Positions 30,103 to 38,475 of a DNA stretch of 64,000 bases are shown here, in pieces. The DNA comes from an alpha proteobacterium IMCC14465 (GTDB lineage: Bacteria; Pseudomonadota; Alphaproteobacteria; RS24), in the NCBI GenBank assembly GCA_000293845.2, contig ALYF01000003.1, forward strand, positions 558,001-622,000, given 5' to 3'. Both the position numbers and the translations under genes were made by a program. Numbering within the stretch: position 1 is the stretch's first letter; each line of letters begins with the position of its first letter. The notes under the pieces were generated by a model, which saw nothing but the letters and a program-made list of their open reading frames with translations, was not told the DNA's origin and searched no databases.

Positions 30103-31548
30103 TTAAAAGTCAAAAGGTGATAAGCCGCGAATATTATCATCCACCCGCAAGCTACGCATTAAAGGCGGCGTGGCGCGCTGGTGACAATCCAGCCTTTCAC
30201 AAAGTCGACAATTCACCCCGATAGGCATATCACTTTTGGTTTCTTCGAGATTATACTGATGCGAATAAACAAGCTTACCGGCATGAGAAATCTCGCAACC
30301 CAGCCCAATAGCGAATTGATTATCCTGCTTGTCAAAAGCTGAACGGTTGCGGCTCACTGTGCGGCTGATGGAAAAATAGCGTGTGTTGTCTTCCATACAG
30401 ATGATTTGCGTCATAACCTTACCGGGTTGCCTGAAACTGTCGTGAATATTCCAGCGCGGGCAGGTACCGCCAAATCTCGAAAAATGAAACCCGCCTGCGG
30501 CAAACCGCTTTGAGACATTGCCAGCATTATCAATACGGATAAGAAAAAACGGTACACCCTTCGCGCCCGGACGCTGCAAAGTTGTCAGGCGGTGGCAGAC
30601 TTGCTCAAAGCTGGTGCCAAAGCGGCGGCTCAGGAGTGTGATGTCGTAGCCATTATCTTCGGCCGTTTGGAGAAAAATTCCATAAGGCATTAAAATCGCT
30701 GCGGCGGCGTAATTTATCAATGCCAGTCGGGCGAGTCTTTGTGCTTCAGAATTTTCCAGATTAGAATTGCTGATAATTTCTTCAACCGCTTTGCTGTGTT
30801 CAAAATAGGCGAGTTGATAGGCAATCTGAAAGGCTCGGCTAGATTGGTTCAGCAGTTCCGACAAAAACAAGGTTTGGCGGTGGCGGTCATAACGCCTTAA
30901 ATCATCCCCCATTAAGTCGACCGGCCCAATGCGGGTCGATACGCCGTGAGCGTGTTGAAGATATTGGCGCAGCGCGAGAAACGGGTCATCATCCACCAGC
31001 CCCGCTTTTATATAAAGCTCCTCTGCATAATCATCGAGTTCGGGAAAGTGATTGGAGCGTTGATTGATAAAGTCCCTGACTTCCTCAAAGGACATGAGCG
31101 CGCTGGTGGTTTCGCCATGCGTGTTGTCGGCGAGGCGTTCGGCGAGCATGGAGGAGGTCGTGCTGGCATCACGGTAGGTTTGGAATAGGCGCGCAATGGC
31201 ATCCACGGCATTTGGGCTGGCGGCAGAAATATCTCGGATTTCCTGATCGGCGACTGGCGTGTCCTGAAATAACGGGTCAGCGAAAATTTCGCGTAATTGC
31301 GTATAGGCACGGGCTTCTTCATCTCCGGCAAGGCCGCGGGGGTCAATGTCAAAAACATCGACCATTTTAATAAGAATTTGTGCCGAAACAGGGCGCTGGT
31401 CGCGTTCAATCAGATTCAGGTAACTTGTTGAGATTCCGAGGGATTCTGCCATTACAGCTTGGGTGAGGGCAAGTTCGCGCCTTAGCCTGCGAATACGCAT
31501 GCCAGCAAACAGTTTTCTGTCCAAATTTGCACCTTCGGCCTTTTTCAT
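30103..31548 (-). CDS. XRE-family regulator with IrrE-like and DUF2083 domains (ScfR/RamB type)
   Basis: A 481-residue transcription factor. Residues about 12-70 form an XRE helix-turn-helix (LALTQAVMAESLGISTSYLNLIERD). The middle is ImmA/IrrE-like but its HExxH is lost (FQIAYQLAYFEH). The C-terminal domain carries conserved cysteines in GGTCPRW and NCRLCERLDCHQRATPP, the mark of DUF2083, which is thought to sense short-chain acyl-CoA in ScfR/RamB regulators. These control the glyoxylate cycle and acetate or propionate use. Divergent transcription from isocitrate lyase fits that role. Confidence 0.88.
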   Translation of the reverse strand: MKKAEGANLDRKLFAGMRIRRLRRELALTQAVMAESLGISTSYLNLIERDQRPVSAQILIKMVDVFDIDPRGLAGDEEARAYTQLREIFADPLFQDTPVADQEIRDISAASPNAVDAIARLFQTYRDASTTSSMLAERLADNTHGETTSALMSFEEVRDFINQRSNHFPELDDYAEELYIKAGLVDDDPFLALRQYLQHAHGVSTRIGPVDLMGDDLRRYDRHRQTLFLSELLNQSSRAFQIAYQLAYFEHSKAVEEIISNSNLENSEAQRLARLALINYAAAAILMPYGIFLQTAEDNGYDITLLSRRFGTSFEQVCHRLTTLQRPGAKGVPFFLIRIDNAGNVSKRFAAGGFHFSRFGGTCPRWNIHDSFRQPGKVMTQIICMEDNTRYFSISRTVSRNRSAFDKQDNQFAIGLGCEISHAGKLVYSHQYNLEETKSDMPIGVNCRLCERLDCHQRATPPLMRSLRVDDNIRGLSPFDF

Positions 31549-31550
31549 AA

Positions 31551-31665
31551 GTTTACAATATTTACATTATTTACAGAAATCAACAAAAACCTTGTAAATA
31601 AGTTTACCTTATTATTATCAATAGCTTAACTTATAGCTTGAGTGTTCGTGTAAATACTGTAAACA
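31551..31665. promoter_or_regulatory. Cluster of TTTACA/TGTAAA half-sites between regulator and aceA
   Basis: Half-sites on the plus strand: TTTACA at 31552-31557, 31561-31566 and 31570-31575; TGTAAA at 31593-31598; GTTTAC at 31602-31607; TGTAAA at 31649-31654; and TGTAAAC at 31659-31665. Several are spaced 9-10 bp, one helical turn. They lie between the divergent starts and are likely binding sites for the adjacent regulator. Confidence 0.7.
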
Positions 31666-31697
31666 GACCCCATATGCAAACACAAGAGAGGCAAAAC

Positions 31698-33302
31698 ATG
31701 TCAAATTATCTCGAGCAGGTTCAATCTTTAACCGATACAAAATCTTCCAACGGTGTCGCTTGGGGCGGCATTAACCCAGAATATGCTGTGCGCATGCGCC
31801 TTCAGAACCGGTTTCTGACCGGGTTGGATATTGCGCGCTATACGGCCTCTATCATGCGGGCCGATATGGAAAACTATGATGGCGATACCTCGCAATACAC
31901 CCAGTCTCTCGGGTGCTGGCACGGCTTTACCGCCCAGCAAATGCTGATGGCGATTAAGCGGCATAATCACACCACCCAGCGTAGCTATGTTTATCTTTCC
32001 GGTTGGATGGTTGCGGCGCTGCGCTCTGATTTCGGCCCTCTGCCGGATCAGTCCATGCATGAGAAAACAGCCGTGTCTGGTTTGATTGAAGAGATTTACA
32101 CATTTTTGAAACAAGCGGATGCGCGAGAGCTCAGGCATTTATTTGTTGAGCTGGATGAAGTCAAAGCTGCCGGCGGTGACGTTCATGCCGTGCTGGATAA
32201 GATTGATAATTTCCAGACTCACATCGTGCCGATTATCGCAGATATTGACGCAGGTTTCGGTAATGAAGAAGCCACTTATCTCTTGGCCAAGAAAATGATT
32301 GAAGCGGGTGCGTGCTGTATCCAGATTGAAAATCAGGTTTCCGATGCGAAGCAGTGTGGTCACCAAGACGGTAAAGTGACGGTCCCACATGAAGACTTCC
32401 TCGCCAAAATTAACGCTGTTCGCTATGCCTTTATCGAACTGGGTGTTGATGATGGGGTCATTGTTGCGCGGACGGATTCACTTGGTGCCGGTCTGACCCA
32501 AAAAATCCCTGTTTCTCAACAGCCGGGCGATTTGGCTAGCCAATATAATGCATTTTTGAAAACTGAAGCGGTTACTGATGCTTCAGCGCTGGGCGAAGGC
32601 GATATTGTCTTTAAGCAAAATGATGAGCTCGTGAAGCCGCATCGTTTGCCGAATGGCCTTTATGCTTTCCGCGATGGCTCTGGTGAAGACAGGGTTGTGC
32701 TTGATTGCGTTACCAGCCTGCAAAATGGTGCAGACTTGTTATGGATTGAAACCGAGAAGCCTAATCTCGACCAGATTGCCGGCATGGTGAACCGTATCCG
32801 CGAGGTCATTCCAAATGCCAAGCTGGTTTATAACAACTCGCCGAGCTTTAACTGGACACTGGCTTTCCGTGAGCAAGTCTATGGCGAATGGTCAGCTGCC
32901 GGTAAAGACGTATCGGCCTATCCTGATCCGGTTGAGGTGCCACGTGGTTTGATGAGCGTCGAGTTTGATGCCACCGAATTGGCGATTGAAGCCGATAGGC
33001 TGATACAGTCCTTCCAGGCTGATGCTGCCCGTGAAGCGGGCATTTTCCACCACCTCATCACACTGCCGACCTATCATGAAACGGCACTGGGAACAGATAT
33101 GCTTTCAGAAGGCTATTTCGGTGATTTGGGAATGCTTGCCTATGTGCGTGATATTCAACGTCAGGAAATCCGTCGCGGTCAGGCTTCTGTGAAGCACCAA
33201 GATCTCGCCGGATCAAACATCGGTGATGACCATAAGGAATATTTCTCAGGTGATAATGCGCTGCTGGCATCAGGTGAAGATAACACCATGAACCAGTTTT
33301 AA
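31698..33302 (+). CDS. aceA: Isocitrate lyase
   Basis: A 534-residue glyoxylate-cycle enzyme that splits isocitrate into succinate and glyoxylate. The active-site segment is DAKQCGHQDGKVTVPHED with the catalytic Cys at 220, and IVARTDSLGAG is also conserved. The motif KQCGHQDGK and the length match the 530-residue Pseudomonas-like form rather than E. coli AceA (434). ATG at 31698 is chosen because GAGAGG lies 6 bp upstream; the frame is open to 31638. It is followed immediately by the RraA-like gene. Confidence 0.96.
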   Translation: MSNYLEQVQSLTDTKSSNGVAWGGINPEYAVRMRLQNRFLTGLDIARYTASIMRADMENYDGDTSQYTQSLGCWHGFTAQQMLMAIKRHNHTTQRSYVYLSGWMVAALRSDFGPLPDQSMHEKTAVSGLIEEIYTFLKQADARELRHLFVELDEVKAAGGDVHAVLDKIDNFQTHIVPIIADIDAGFGNEEATYLLAKKMIEAGACCIQIENQVSDAKQCGHQDGKVTVPHEDFLAKINAVRYAFIELGVDDGVIVARTDSLGAGLTQKIPVSQQPGDLASQYNAFLKTEAVTDASALGEGDIVFKQNDELVKPHRLPNGLYAFRDGSGEDRVVLDCVTSLQNGADLLWIETEKPNLDQIAGMVNRIREVIPNAKLVYNNSPSFNWTLAFREQVYGEWSAAGKDVSAYPDPVEVPRGLMSVEFDATELAIEADRLIQSFQADAAREAGIFHHLITLPTYHETALGTDMLSEGYFGDLGMLAYVRDIQRQEIRRGQASVKHQDLAGSNIGDDHKEYFSGDNALLASGEDNTMNQF

Positions 33303-33303
33303 G

Positions 33304-33813
33304 ATGACTGGAATTTCTGAACACATGCCCGAGACAGCAATTTGCACAGCCGATTTGTCAGATGCTTATTCTGATATGTTGGTTTATCTCGGGCTTGCGT
33401 TTAGAGATTTCGGCAAACGCATTGCTTTTAACGGGCCAATTGTGACGCTCGATACATTCGAGGATAATGGTGCGCTGAGAGAATTGCTCGAAGGCAAGGG
33501 AGAAGGGCGCGTCATCGTCGTTGACGGTCACGCCTCTTCTAATTGTGCGTTGTTGGGGGGTAATCTGGGCGAACTTGCTGAGGCCAATGGCTGGGCAGGT
33601 ATTGTCATTAATGGCTTGGTGAGAGACACAATGGAACTGGCCGAAGCGAATATTGGGATTAAAGCGTTGGGGACGCATCCGAAAAAGAGCATCAAGCGCG
33701 GCGTGGGAAGTGTAAATGTGCCGCTACGCATTGAGGGGATTAACATCTATCCCGGCGCGTGGCTTTATGCGGATGCTGACGGCGTTATTATTGCGCCCGA
33801 AAAATTAAAATAA
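33304..33813 (+). CDS. RraA-like protein (4-hydroxy-4-methyl-2-oxoglutarate aldolase family)
   Basis: A 169-residue protein with the RraA fold: TADLSDAY at the N-terminus, LLGGNLGELAEANGWAGIVING in the middle and GIKALGTHPKKS later. The family includes RraA, an RNase E inhibitor, and aldolases or oxaloacetate decarboxylases; the Arg-Asp pair (GLVRDT) of the divalent-metal aldolase site is present. Being one base after the aceA stop suggests co-transcription and a possible metabolic role, though the RNase E role cannot be excluded. Confidence 0.85.
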   Translation: MTGISEHMPETAICTADLSDAYSDMLVYLGLAFRDFGKRIAFNGPIVTLDTFEDNGALRELLEGKGEGRVIVVDGHASSNCALLGGNLGELAEANGWAGIVINGLVRDTMELAEANIGIKALGTHPKKSIKRGVGSVNVPLRIEGINIYPGAWLYADADGVIIAPEKLK

Positions 33814-33864: not shown

Positions 33865-35193
33865 TTAAATCAACAATCTAGAAGCAAACCAGAACATGCC
33901 GATACCACACATGGCGATGCCGCCAAGGTCTATGACGGCCCCGCGCAGGCGTTCTGAGAAGCGTGTATGCATATATCTGAAAAACCCGTACCAGATAAGC
34001 CCGACTATCAAAAGCTGACCAACCTCCACACCCATATTAAACCCGATAAGCGCGGTTAACAGCCGGTCATTTGGTAGGCCCGCCTCCACCAGAATACCAG
34101 CAAAACCAAATCCGTGAACAAGACCAAAAATCACCACCAATATAGGAAGCGTCTGCCTAACCGTATTGAGGTTTTGCGAATAAAAACCATAGGCCACTGC
34201 AAACAGCATCAGTCCTGCCCAGCCATTAATCGGCATGGGCGCCTCAAGCGTGATGGAATAGAGGCCCATGAAAAACAGTATCAGCGCAAATACGCCCCCC
34301 GCCAGCCACATCAAGTTTCGCCGTGCCATGACAGCCTCGGCGGCAACCACTAAAATAGTAAAGCCGATAAGACCTTCAACTATAGCGGATTGTGTCGAGA
34401 CAATGTTCATGACGCTGAGTGCCAGTGTGAGGCTGTGCCCGATGGTGAAGCCCGTTACCACCAGCACCACATCGCGCAAGCGATTGGTCAGAAGCAAAAG
34501 ACCAAGCAGGAAAACCAGATGGTCAAAGCCGCTTAGAATATGGGTAATCCCAATCTGGCTGTATTGGAAAAAGGTTTGAACAAGCCCGATATCCTCGGCA
34601 ATCATATTACCGTCGGTTTCGAGGCTCAACACATCTTGCCGGCGGTCATAATTAAATAAATAGCCGCGATATTGTCCGGTTTCATTTTTGAATTGAGCAA
34701 AATGAATATGAGTTTCGGCATAATCCATAAAACTTGCAATGCCGATGGTGACGGTATCGGCATCCTTATCATCATCCTTTATTTCCTCAGTCATCTCTTT
34801 ATCCGGGCAGATAAAATAATTTTCCATGCTGATGAAACCGGGACGCGCCTTGCGTGCTGTAAAGCCGGAGGCGATGCAAGGGTCTTTTGATGTAGAACTG
34901 GCTTTTGAAAGCGTTATTGTGTCGTCCAGATGTTGTCCGAGTGTGCGCTCCAGTGACGGGGCATTAGGATTAGCTGGTGGAAGAAGCGTCACTTGACGCG
35001 CGGCGACGGTGAAAATAACGGCTATACCTTTTTCAGTACTTCGCCATTTCGAGAAGGACTGACTTTTTTCATGTGCCAGTGCATCGCTATGCGTGATGAG
35101 CATACCCCCAGCCAATAAGCTCGGAACAAATGCCATGACAATTAAAGCGCTTATCAGTTTTCTGGCGCAAGTCTTCAACAGACTTTTGAGCAT
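33865..35193 (-). CDS. HupE/UreJ-like membrane protein
   Basis: A 442-residue protein. A signal peptide (about 1-40) is followed by an extracytoplasmic domain (40-205) and then 6-7 membrane helices. The core motif THILSGFDHLVFLLGLLLLTNR and FTIGHSLTLAL match the HupE/UreJ_2 family, related to nickel permeases. A second His-rich helix contains LVHGFGFAGIL. The transported ion, if any, is unknown. It is the third gene of a cluster with a parvulin-type isomerase and a DUF3604 protein and lies 12 bp after the isomerase gene. Confidence 0.85.
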   Translation of the reverse strand: MLKSLLKTCARKLISALIVMAFVPSLLAGGMLITHSDALAHEKSQSFSKWRSTEKGIAVIFTVAARQVTLLPPANPNAPSLERTLGQHLDDTITLSKASSTSKDPCIASGFTARKARPGFISMENYFICPDKEMTEEIKDDDKDADTVTIGIASFMDYAETHIHFAQFKNETGQYRGYLFNYDRRQDVLSLETDGNMIAEDIGLVQTFFQYSQIGITHILSGFDHLVFLLGLLLLTNRLRDVVLVVTGFTIGHSLTLALSVMNIVSTQSAIVEGLIGFTILVVAAEAVMARRNLMWLAGGVFALILFFMGLYSITLEAPMPINGWAGLMLFAVAYGFYSQNLNTVRQTLPILVVIFGLVHGFGFAGILVEAGLPNDRLLTALIGFNMGVEVGQLLIVGLIWYGFFRYMHTRFSERLRGAVIDLGGIAMCGIGMFWFASRLLI

Positions 35194-35205
35194 GAGCTAT
35201 CCAGT

Positions 35206-36105
35206 CTAAAAGTCGGCCGGTTGAAGTTGGGATGCGGTTTGGTCTATATCAGCGCGCTCACGAAGCCAGTCGAGATAATCGCGGAGCGCTTTTTCCTCGA
35301 GTTTCCTGAGATAGTCATTCTCGACTTGCTCTCTGATATCGTTGAATTCAGGAACAATCCCTTTGCGTTGTTGCACCAAATATAAAAAGTGCCAGCCACT
35401 CCCAACGCGAATGGCATTGGTGATTGCGCCTTCATCCAGAGAAATCACGGTCTGTGTGAGAGCCGGGCCGAGATAGGCCTGTAATTTTGTTGGTGGGAGC
35501 AAGCTGTTAGGAATTTCAGGGAAAATCTCATCACCGAGCCGTGCGGCGACGGCATCAAAATTTTCACCCTGTTGCAGGGCGGTGCGAATTTCTTGGAGCC
35601 GCTGGTCGGCATCGTCGCGCGCGCCTCTGACATAAATCCGTTTCACCCAGATTTGTTTGCTTGGGGTAAAATAATCGAGATTATTCAGAAAATGCGTGTT
35701 CAGAATCTCGTCTGTTATCTCGGCATCGCCATTTTCCGAAATAATAAATTGAATCATGGCGTTTGTGAGTGCCTTGCGAACTGAACTGTCTATACCAATC
35801 AGATTAATCTCATCAGCACGTTGAATAAGTAATTCCTCATCAATCAGTAAATCCAAAATCCGCAGTCTATCCGCATCATTAATCGGCCCGCGCTTATCCT
35901 GCTCCAGCATGGATAAAGCTCTGAGATAACCTGTTTCGGGGATAGCTACGTCATTCACAAAGGCGATGGCTGTGCCCTCATAATCGGGTTTAGGTGTGTC
36001 AAAAACCGTGCTGACCGCCACAATGAGACCGGCCAGCGCCATAAGCCCAAGTAGAAACGGCATATAGGGTAGGTTTTCCGAAGGTTTTTTTTCTAAATCT
36101 GTCAT
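35206..36105 (-). CDS. Membrane-anchored peptidyl-prolyl isomerase (parvulin type)
   Basis: A 299-residue protein. A membrane segment lies at about 14-35, followed by a SurA/PrsA-like chaperone segment and a PPIC-type domain at about 155-262 (GENFDAVAARLGDEI, VGSGWHFLYLVQQRKG). It would catalyse proline isomerisation or assist folding outside the cytoplasm. It overlaps the DUF3604 stop by 1 bp (TAATG) and precedes the HupE/UreJ-like gene by 12 bp. The DUF3604 neighbour has 20 cysteines and is a natural client; this is inference. Confidence 0.82.
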   Translation of the reverse strand: MTDLEKKPSENLPYMPFLLGLMALAGLIVAVSTVFDTPKPDYEGTAIAFVNDVAIPETGYLRALSMLEQDKRGPINDADRLRILDLLIDEELLIQRADEINLIGIDSSVRKALTNAMIQFIISENGDAEITDEILNTHFLNNLDYFTPSKQIWVKRIYVRGARDDADQRLQEIRTALQQGENFDAVAARLGDEIFPEIPNSLLPPTKLQAYLGPALTQTVISLDEGAITNAIRVGSGWHFLYLVQQRKGIVPEFNDIREQVENDYLRKLEEKALRDYLDWLRERADIDQTASQLQPADF

Positions 36106-38372
36106 TACTCAAAGCTTACATAAATCGGGGAAGACCACGCACGTTCTTCGCTTGGGTCATCGCATTGGTCGTTAACATCTTGACGGTAATCACCGTAACA
36201 CAGATTAACTTTTATGCATTGCCCTGCCTCGTCATAGTCACAACGTAACGGGTCGGCATTAATCACCTGTGTTGGGCTTTGAATGGCGCGGGCATAATAG
36301 GTTGTATCGCGCCCGTCTTTGACAAAATCCTCATCGGTAAAACTAAACTGACACCCCTCACGTGATGCATCGCATTTATGAACAAGCCACGGGTCTTCTA
36401 TTAAGTCGCTGATTTTTTCATCCGGCGTTATTTGCGGCTTAATACGGATGATTTCGATGCGGGTAATGGGTAGTCTTTCATCTGAGGGGTTGTAACATTC
36501 CCCGCCGCATAATTTCTGCACACGTTGCGCACCAAGATTATCAACCACATGGGTTGGGCATCCAGCTAGTTGGTCAAAATCGCCAACGGCTTTGACGGTA
36601 AAAGTCGGGTTGGTATCCGTTTGTGTACTGCCCCCCATGCGGATGGTTTCTTTATCAGTTTTCATATCAAACCAAAGCAGAATACGCGGGCCTGATGTGG
36701 CATAGACTTGCCGATTTTCCATGGCATTAAAAACGCTTTCGCGGTCACGGCTAGGCGTATGTACGGCGGCAAGACCACCCGTTGTCCAGTAGCTACCCTG
36801 ACGCTCAACTTCCAGCATGTTAAAGCTCAAATCTCCGCGTCTTTCTTCGAGTGTAACGAGTTCGGCCTCGGCATATTCCTCATCGGTCTGGCGCATCATA
36901 TCAATCAAAAAATCCGACTCGATACGCGCCATTTCCGTCGTGCGCAGTCTTTGGGCAGGCTTATAGCCCGTGCCGGGGCGTGCGCGGTGATTGTCACTTG
37001 CTGAGATAAAGCCCCAGTTAAACCGCTTAATGTCGTCTGGGTCGTCAAAATTGGAAATCGCCAGCCCATATTGGATGCTGGTGCCCGGACGGTGATTGAA
37101 AGAAGGTCTGAAGCAGTCTATGCACTGACCCGCATCCAACCACTCGCTGGGCTCACTGGCGCCAATAGCCAAATGCCCGGCTGTTATCATATTTACGGAA
37201 GCAAAACGGGCATATTCGGCGCGCTCTTCGCAAACTTCCTGCGTTTCACCCGAAGCCGAGCATCTTTCCATTAATATGTCACCAGCACGATGACACAGAG
37301 GTGTGAAATTTTCTGTGGGTTCTGGGCAGGCAAGCATACCGTCTTCGCCCGGAATGGCGTTCTTGTAATCCCGATATTCTTCGGAATTACCGTGACCGGA
37401 CATAATCTCGATGAGTTTGAATTTCTCAGGATACATGGCGGTTTTGAGTTGCTTATCCCAAGTTGTGCGGAACGGGGTGTAAAAACCCCAGCTAGAGCCA
37501 TGCGGGATAATCAAAGGGTTTAGGTTTTGCTGCGCGAGACGTTCAATCAGTTCGCCAGGTGTTTCAGCAATTTCAAAGCAATCCGCCGGCAGTTCATTAG
37601 ACGGGACTGTCGGATCACAAGAGGGTGCTTCGCCAATCTCCGCCAGATATTTGCGAATGTCGTAATAAACCTGACGGTTTTCAAAATCCAGAAATGCGGT
37701 TGTGCGGGGCATCATATTGGAGGACTGGTTGCGCAGCACTTCAGTCGCAAGACCGCCTGACGCAATCGGGCGCAAAGATAGCTCCTCATCGTCCAGCCCT
37801 TCAAAAATCACGTTTTTATGTCCGTAATGGGTTTCAGGCGTTGGGCCGACTTGTGACCATTCAAAGCCGAGATAACTTATCATATCGGGGTTTGCGGGGT
37901 CGCCAGCCCGCGCATTGCAATCACGCAAGGACTGCTTGGCTTGAGACCATCTCTTTTTTGTTGTGGCCTCAGCATGGTCAGTAATGGCCCAAAAATCTAT
38001 GCCGGAGCAATAGCGGGCATAGTCGCACGCATCAGCGATTGGATAAACGCCTTCGCCGCCATATAGCGGCATGGACCATAAAAACGCATCGGTTGAGAAA
38101 GTGCTGTGAACATGCAAGTCGCCGAAAAGAATTTGCGCTTCATCATTCTCATCCATTTGCCCGATTGCGGCTTGTTGTGCGTCAACACGCTGGGAAATGA
38201 TTTCCGTTGCCAGACCGTCGGCTTGAATGACGCCCGCATCACGGGTTTTGCCATAAAGATCCAGATAGACGCCGGCGACATATAAGCCAGCGAATAAGAT
38301 AATGCCAAGAAATATGCCAGAGAGAATTTTGGCAATATTTGACGAATGAGAAGATTTAATATTATCTGACAT
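36105..38372 (-). CDS. DUF3604-family predicted metal-dependent hydrolase
   Basis: A 755-residue protein. One N-terminal membrane segment (about 18-40) anchors a large periplasmic domain. Near the N-terminus FGDLHVHSTFSTDAFL and IDFWAITDHAE give histidines and acids like those of PHP phosphoesterases, as in DUF3604. Twenty cysteines, many paired, suggest disulfides. The start at 38372 follows a GGGGGTAGAG ribosome-binding site; a GTG 15 bp upstream is less likely. It leads the trio DUF3604-PPIase-HupE. Its substrate is unknown. It is divergent from mutL. Confidence 0.85.
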   Translation of the reverse strand: MSDNIKSSHSSNIAKILSGIFLGIILFAGLYVAGVYLDLYGKTRDAGVIQADGLATEIISQRVDAQQAAIGQMDENDEAQILFGDLHVHSTFSTDAFLWSMPLYGGEGVYPIADACDYARYCSGIDFWAITDHAEATTKKRWSQAKQSLRDCNARAGDPANPDMISYLGFEWSQVGPTPETHYGHKNVIFEGLDDEELSLRPIASGGLATEVLRNQSSNMMPRTTAFLDFENRQVYYDIRKYLAEIGEAPSCDPTVPSNELPADCFEIAETPGELIERLAQQNLNPLIIPHGSSWGFYTPFRTTWDKQLKTAMYPEKFKLIEIMSGHGNSEEYRDYKNAIPGEDGMLACPEPTENFTPLCHRAGDILMERCSASGETQEVCEERAEYARFASVNMITAGHLAIGASEPSEWLDAGQCIDCFRPSFNHRPGTSIQYGLAISNFDDPDDIKRFNWGFISASDNHRARPGTGYKPAQRLRTTEMARIESDFLIDMMRQTDEEYAEAELVTLEERRGDLSFNMLEVERQGSYWTTGGLAAVHTPSRDRESVFNAMENRQVYATSGPRILLWFDMKTDKETIRMGGSTQTDTNPTFTVKAVGDFDQLAGCPTHVVDNLGAQRVQKLCGGECYNPSDERLPITRIEIIRIKPQITPDEKISDLIEDPWLVHKCDASREGCQFSFTDEDFVKDGRDTTYYARAIQSPTQVINADPLRCDYDEAGQCIKVNLCYGDYRQDVNDQCDDPSEERAWSSPIYVSFE

Positions 38373-38475
38373 GAACTCTACCCCCACAATTTTATCAACA
38401 TGCTAATCGCCTCGGTGGGGCGGCGCAAGTCAGATGATTTTGTTAAAGTCAAAAAAGAATCAGTCTGGTAAATCA

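Follow-up and report, generated by a model that had tools for sequence, protein, structure and literature searches.

The HupE proteins that have been characterised bring Ni into the cytoplasm, and the motif HX5DH is the signature of the HupE/UreJ permease family. In the passages of the anglerase paper that deal with metal binding, Ang-1 is reported to bind Cu with a Kd of about 74 nM and Ni with one of about 220 nM via its N-terminal histidine and is proposed to capture metal and feed the attached permease for uptake; Asn41, a metal ligand of Ang-1, is described as poorly conserved (PMC12537917). The neighbourhood text of the same paper names DUF4198, IndA-like proteins, PfkB kinases and unknown proteins, with no mention there of DUF3604 or PPIase genes (PMC12537917). 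The secreted PHP diesterases Sb-PDE and No-PDE have, in the passages that describe them, 3E38 as their sole solved homologue and nine listed ligands of a trinuclear zinc site (PMC11656708); chaperone or HupE neighbours are not reported in the literature passages on these enzymes (PMC5460133, PMC11656708). SurA, PrsA and HP_0175 are extracytoplasmic foldases with an N-terminal helical module and a parvulin domain. At the locus described here, genes for a DUF3604 protein, a parvulin-fold protein and an anglerase-type HupE protein lie side by side.

Locus and host genome

The window, a 64,000-nt stretch of the genome of alpha proteobacterium IMCC14465 (contig ALYF01000003.1, positions 558,001 to 622,000), holds three consecutive ORFs, all on the minus strand. 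The DUF3604 gene (36105..38372, minus strand) encodes 755 aa from an ATG at 38372; a GTG start is possible at 38387 (ORF 36105-38387). It is followed by the parvulin gene (35206..36105, minus strand, 299 aa), which overlaps it by 1 bp in the junction TAATG, and after a spacing of 12 bp by the HupE gene (33865..35193, minus strand, 442 aa). The preliminary description had given three same-strand genes with 1-bp and 12-bp junctions and a first product of 755 aa with 20 cysteines, all of which is borne out by the ORFs and the sequence, and had named the families DUF3604, PPIase and HupE/UreJ, each of which scored above its Pfam cut-off. Elsewhere in the window (30103-33813) a gene for a ScfR-type short-chain acyl-CoA regulator is divergent from an isocitrate-lyase-family gene, with an RraA-like gene 1 bp after the latter.

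The host genome (1.92 Mb, 99.75% complete) has PS1-clade bacteria as its closest named relatives. Window-like DUF3604 proteins (20 Cys) and HupE proteins (with HxH) were classed as long types, and the shorter forms without these features as canonical. Three trios were found in the genome, including that of the window. The second (L084:7506-11927, contig C10) again has a DUF3604 protein of the 20-Cys type; the third (L085:9804-13774, contig C3) has the canonical type and adjoins a TonB-dependent receptor gene. A short HupE_UreJ_2 protein (235 aa; L087:6578-7588) is encoded divergently from a metal-responsive repressor of CsoR/RcnR type, with an RND efflux system close by. Urease (PF00449) and NiFe hydrogenase (PF00374) were absent from the host genome in searches with positive controls, which disfavours Ni supply to such enzymes; the corresponding search for Ni-SOD was run without a positive control.

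The DUF3604 protein

The first gene product scored 69.9 bits against Pfam DUF3604 (PF12228, gathering cut-off 20.4), in two stretches. PDB sequence searches with the single trio proteins gave no useful match, and a DUF3604 profile run against PDB sequences returned only CHCH proteins, which were judged chance matches and rejected; structure comparison was therefore used instead. The AlphaFold2 model (mean pLDDT 82.8, pTM 0.87) had the PHP protein 3e38 as its best solved match (Z 16.8, rmsd 3.4, 242 aligned residues), followed by 3o0f (Z 11.1) and other PHP proteins (Z 8-11), with unrelated rows at Z ≤4.3. As modelled, the protein has a PHP-superfamily fold.

Nine residues (H92, H94, D100, H138, E176, H190, H296, D465 and H467 in the numbering from the GTG start) were invariant in 17/17 aligned DUF3604 proteins of long and canonical types. 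They are putative PHP metal ligands, matched to the published trinuclear-zinc list by motif order only. Motif I, DLHVHSTFSTDA (38085..38120, minus strand), contributes H92, H94 and D100, which in motif order match H61/H63/D68 of Sb-PDE and are invariant in both DUF3604 types; motif IV, SDNH (36984..37001, minus strand), contributes D465 and H467, equivalent to D260/H262. The protein thus shares with Sb-PDE, No-PDE and 3E38 the modelled PHP fold, nine matching putative ligands and export, the site being a Zn site in the diesterases according to the passages on them (PMC5460133, PMC11656708). In contrast to its 755 aa, 20 Cys and membrane anchor, Sb-PDE is given in those passages as a 413-residue mature protein with two Cys (PMC5460133, PMC11656708). 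Likeness to the CehA/McbA carbamate metallohydrolases (NF038032) was partial, covering the PHP N-terminus, and at 28.5 bits the match lay below the curated cut-off of 80.

All 20 cysteines are common to the other long-type proteins aligned, SAR11 included, and absent from most canonical DUF3604 proteins. They therefore mark a subfamily and probably form disulfides rather than a metal site. The metal-binding-type enzyme proposed earlier is retained, now with a putative PHP site distinct from the 20 cysteines. The window protein begins with a hydrophobic helix that is uncleaved, and the canonical DUF3604 proteins of trios carry lipoprotein or cleavable signals; both arrangements point to the periplasm.

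The parvulin-fold protein

The second gene product matched Pfam Rotamase_2 at 32 bits (gathering cut-off 27), and a profile of 25 trio-linked parvulins matched SurA, PrsA and HP_0175 (E 1e-18 to 1e-9), with which the protein shares its domain plan. It differs from these foldases in its uncleaved membrane anchor, in the linkage of its gene to one candidate client and in the first parvulin catalytic histidine, which in the alignment with SurA is replaced by Arg (VKRIYVR against HARHILLK) and is missing in most relatives. Membership of the PPIase family stands; with this histidine lost, a holdase or foldase chaperone is more likely than the active isomerase that the name implies. A chaperone role specific to disulfides was rejected, because the same chaperone accompanies the cysteine-poor canonical DUF3604 proteins.

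The HupE protein

The third gene product scored 138.5 bits against HupE_UreJ_2 (PF13795, cut-off 24.5). Its predicted signal peptide (residues 1-40; 35074..35193, minus strand) ends in ALA, which puts His41 at the predicted N-terminus of the mature protein. A histidine directly after the signal was invariant in 28 diverse HupE sequences and present in 44/45 HupE proteins with DUF3604 and parvulin genes nearby. In 43 of these it fell in the aligned column; the 44 also include the L085 protein, where it lies just beyond that column (ASA/H). The HupE protein of the L097 trio has Asp in place of His1.

Residues 41-194 (34612..35073, minus strand) form a predicted periplasmic beta-sandwich domain of Ang-1/ZrgA type with conserved Cys106 and Cys129. 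In the AlphaFold2 model (mean pLDDT 80.9) this domain matched the zinc protein ZrgA (8f1b, Z 10.4), crystallised Ang-1 with Cu (9gce, Z 9.9, rmsd 3.1, 122 aligned residues; residue 41 falls on residue 1 of the chain) and the zinc protein PA4063 (7bgo, Z 9.5); the next row had Z 7.2, and the top three matches are periplasmic metal proteins throughout. His162 and His164 are invariant in the long type and absent from the canonical type, and this HxH may provide extra ligands for the His1 site. The membrane half carries the HX5DH motif as HILSGFDH (residues 218-225; 34519..34542, minus strand), which was found in 78/82 HupE sequences examined.

By sequence and model the protein shows the traits that define the Ang-1 anglerase class, and metal binding is predicted. 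As described in the passages on RbAng-1a (PDB 9GCE), the two have in common the signal followed by His, the beta-sandwich domain, the C-terminal HupE_UreJ_2 domain and an origin in Pseudomonadota (PMC12537917). They differ in the periplasmic domain, which is 4-7% identical, and in the two further invariant histidines of the long type.

Conservation and linkage of the trio

Genome contigs were scanned with the long DUF3604 protein, giving 45 loci; both other genes were nearby at 28, which belong to Alphaproteobacteria, SAR11 and a MAG labelled Abyssibacter. Overall, 40 loci had the three genes within 5 kb, in at least four gene orders: DUF3604, parvulin and HupE mostly colinear, HupE-parvulin divergent from DUF3604 (SAR11), parvulin-HupE upstream of DUF3604, and parvulin-HupE convergent with DUF3604. 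Chance linkage was rejected because the linkage has outlasted several such rearrangements. That the trio is kept together in many marine and soil bacteria despite a reshuffled order suggests dedicated building or feeding of an extracytoplasmic metalloenzyme. One of the carriers is a cultured strain, Maricaulis maris DSM 4734, with its trio at L052.

Among 241 sampled Alphaproteobacteria, long DUF3604 occurred in 12 genomes and long HupE in 11, all 11 within the 12 (Fisher p 4e-18, phylogeny ignored). The preliminary description had proposed measuring the co-occurrence of the three families. The two genes were linked in 8/11 of these genomes and apart on the chromosome in three (G008, G010 and G013), all of the window's own family. 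In a phylum-level sample of 120 Pseudomonadota, 6/7 canonical DUF3604 genes outside the host genome adjoined parvulin and HupE genes, and a parvulin gene stood beside HupE only where DUF3604 also adjoined (6/6 versus 0/12). Pairwise distances of the three genes were correlated (Mantel, rank r 0.76-0.86), partly owing to species phylogeny.

Canonical trios were found on plasmids of rhizobia, roseobacters and Roseibium, where each of the three proteins has its own annotation; a plasmid search with canonical DUF3604 gave 79 records, and plasmid tblastn with the long protein gave no match. The rhizobial and roseobacter plasmid trios have the same three families as the window trio and are likewise colinear, and differ from it in a DUF3604 protein of ∼600-735 aa without the 20 Cys and with a lipoprotein or cleaved signal, and in a shorter HupE without HxH. 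Non-conservation outside close relatives had been named beforehand as the refuting outcome; the trio extends through Alphaproteobacteria and SAR11 to these plasmids. At L104:5037-6023 (minus strand, genome G122) a fused remnant joins the start of a DUF3604 gene to the end of a HupE gene, as if a deletion had spanned a trio.

Gene neighbours and HupE outside the trio

A tally of trio neighbours gave no constant fourth gene. ExbB/ExbD/TonB genes adjoin the Ruegeria trio; TonB genes are not constant neighbours. Alkyl-sulfatase genes (MBL type) adjoin SAR11 trios (L066:1654-3369; L070:1698-3410), and the second PS1 trio has one alongside (L084:4576-7509) plus an arylsulfatase gene. These sulfatase neighbours are a possible hint at the DUF3604 substrate class.

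HupE genes were also found beside other partners. At L113:4854-7124 the gene that precedes HupE_UreJ_2, with 6 bp between the two, encodes a metallo-beta-lactamase-fold protein that is apparently exported; neither DUF3604 nor parvulin occurs at the locus. At L112:6252-10221 and L114:3241-7300 a DUF4331 gene is followed, after a few others, by a HupE_UreJ_2 gene (His after signal), with an ECF sigma/anti-sigma-like pair close by; this set is a candidate for another anglerase module. HupE genes elsewhere adjoin DUF4331 or DUF4198 genes, and, given these and the apparently exported metallo-beta-lactamase-fold protein, more than one kind of exported partner may be served by HupE proteins. A Comamonadaceae plasmid (L096:4108-9703) carries a parvulin-HupE pair without DUF3604, together with genes for a spermidine-synthase-like protein of 869 aa, for a 2OG oxygenase and for a copper chaperone of the PCu(A)C kind.

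Interpretation

We tentatively favour reading the trio as a module that matures an exported metallohydrolase and supplies it with metal. The DUF3604 protein would be threaded out through its N-terminal anchor and fold on the periplasmic side as a trinuclear-metal hydrolase of PHP type, with the anchored SurA/PrsA-like protein serving as a chaperone dedicated to its folding. HupE, of anglerase type, would bind a transition metal through the free His at its N-terminus and, with its HX5DH permease domain, would secure the metal that loads the hydrolase. Computed here in favour of this reading were the three families, the modelled PHP fold with its invariant putative ligands, the predicted signal-His N-terminus (His1 in 44/45), the fold match to Ang-1 and, as observed, the retention of the genes together even when unlinked. 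The parvulin tie, the linkage kept through at least four gene orders, the correlated divergence, the L113 metallo-beta-lactamase-HupE pair and the absence of urease and NiFe hydrogenase were also counted for it. Of the earlier proposal, the metalloenzyme outside the cytoplasm, a folding helper of its own and a membrane protein that handles metal are likewise supported; the transport of metal or ligand that it included is a putative step, as is its direction. We infer the pairing of chaperone with client and the delivery of metal to DUF3604; Zn would be the favoured metal, with Cu or Ni possible, and the substrate is probably a phospho- or other ester.

Against the module, Ni import into the cytoplasm by HupE would not obviously help a Sec-exported enzyme. 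DUF3604 genes stand alone in the host genome (C13 and C3:358k) and at L103, so that some DUF3604 proteins do without the module. The Asp at His1 in L097, the chaperone-HupE plasmid pair at L096 and the phylogenetic share of the Mantel correlation also count against it. A metal-insertion machine made of these three proteins and working outside the cytoplasm is unlikely, though conceivable: HupE would release rather than import metal, passing it to its own His1 domain and directly on to the PHP hydrolase, which the SurA-like chaperone would keep metal-receptive.

It is also improbable that the trio scavenges metal, with DUF3604 splitting a periplasmic organic metal complex (a metallophore or a ligand of phospho-ester type) and the anglerase-HupE capturing and importing the freed metal for general use. 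Capture and uptake are what the anglerase authors propose in the passages on Ang-1 (PMC12537917), the PHP fold is hydrolytic, and TonB-system genes lie beside L085 and the Ruegeria trio; their inconstancy as neighbours speaks against this account, which also leaves the tight tie between chaperone and DUF3604 unexplained. Equally doubtful is a catabolic role, in which a periplasmic carbamate, phospho- or aryl-ester hydrolase would feed carbon or phosphorus and HupE would move the product or be only loosely linked to metal. Secreted PHP diesterases are known, acyl-CoA dehydrogenase, SDR, alkyl-sulfatase and arylsulfatase genes lie near several trios, and there is the weak similarity to CehA/McbA; however, that score is well under its cut-off, the flanking genes differ between genomes while the trio is constant, and the metal features (His1, HX5DH, the ZrgA/Ang-1 fold) sit on HupE. 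Least credible by far is that HupE imports nickel in the ordinary way for cytoplasmic Ni enzymes and has its neighbours by coincidence: although HupE/UreJ relatives are Ni permeases and HX5DH is present, the host genome lacks urease and NiFe hydrogenase and has its separate short HupE beside a metal-responsive repressor, and the linkage is kept through rearrangements.

The preliminary description had seen no known pathway for any of the three genes. This no longer holds for HupE, which matches the Ang-1 class as set out in the passages that name it (PMC12537917), and each family was already known. In the open-access literature covered, DUF3604 appeared in one unrelated Chlamydia paper and PF12228 in none, and the anglerases appeared only in the 2025 paper. 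With DUF3604 and PPIase also missing from the anglerase neighbourhood text, the trio as a module appears to be undescribed in the open literature.

When the anglerase-HupE proteins were described in 2025, no firm partner was given for them. A large group of them, spanning SAR11, PS1, Maricaulales and rhizobia, is now tied to a specific candidate metalloenzyme and a candidate chaperone. A function hypothesis is thereby offered for two orphan families, DUF3604 and HupE_UreJ_2, and through the three-gene trio the supply of metal to exported enzymes becomes a testable question.
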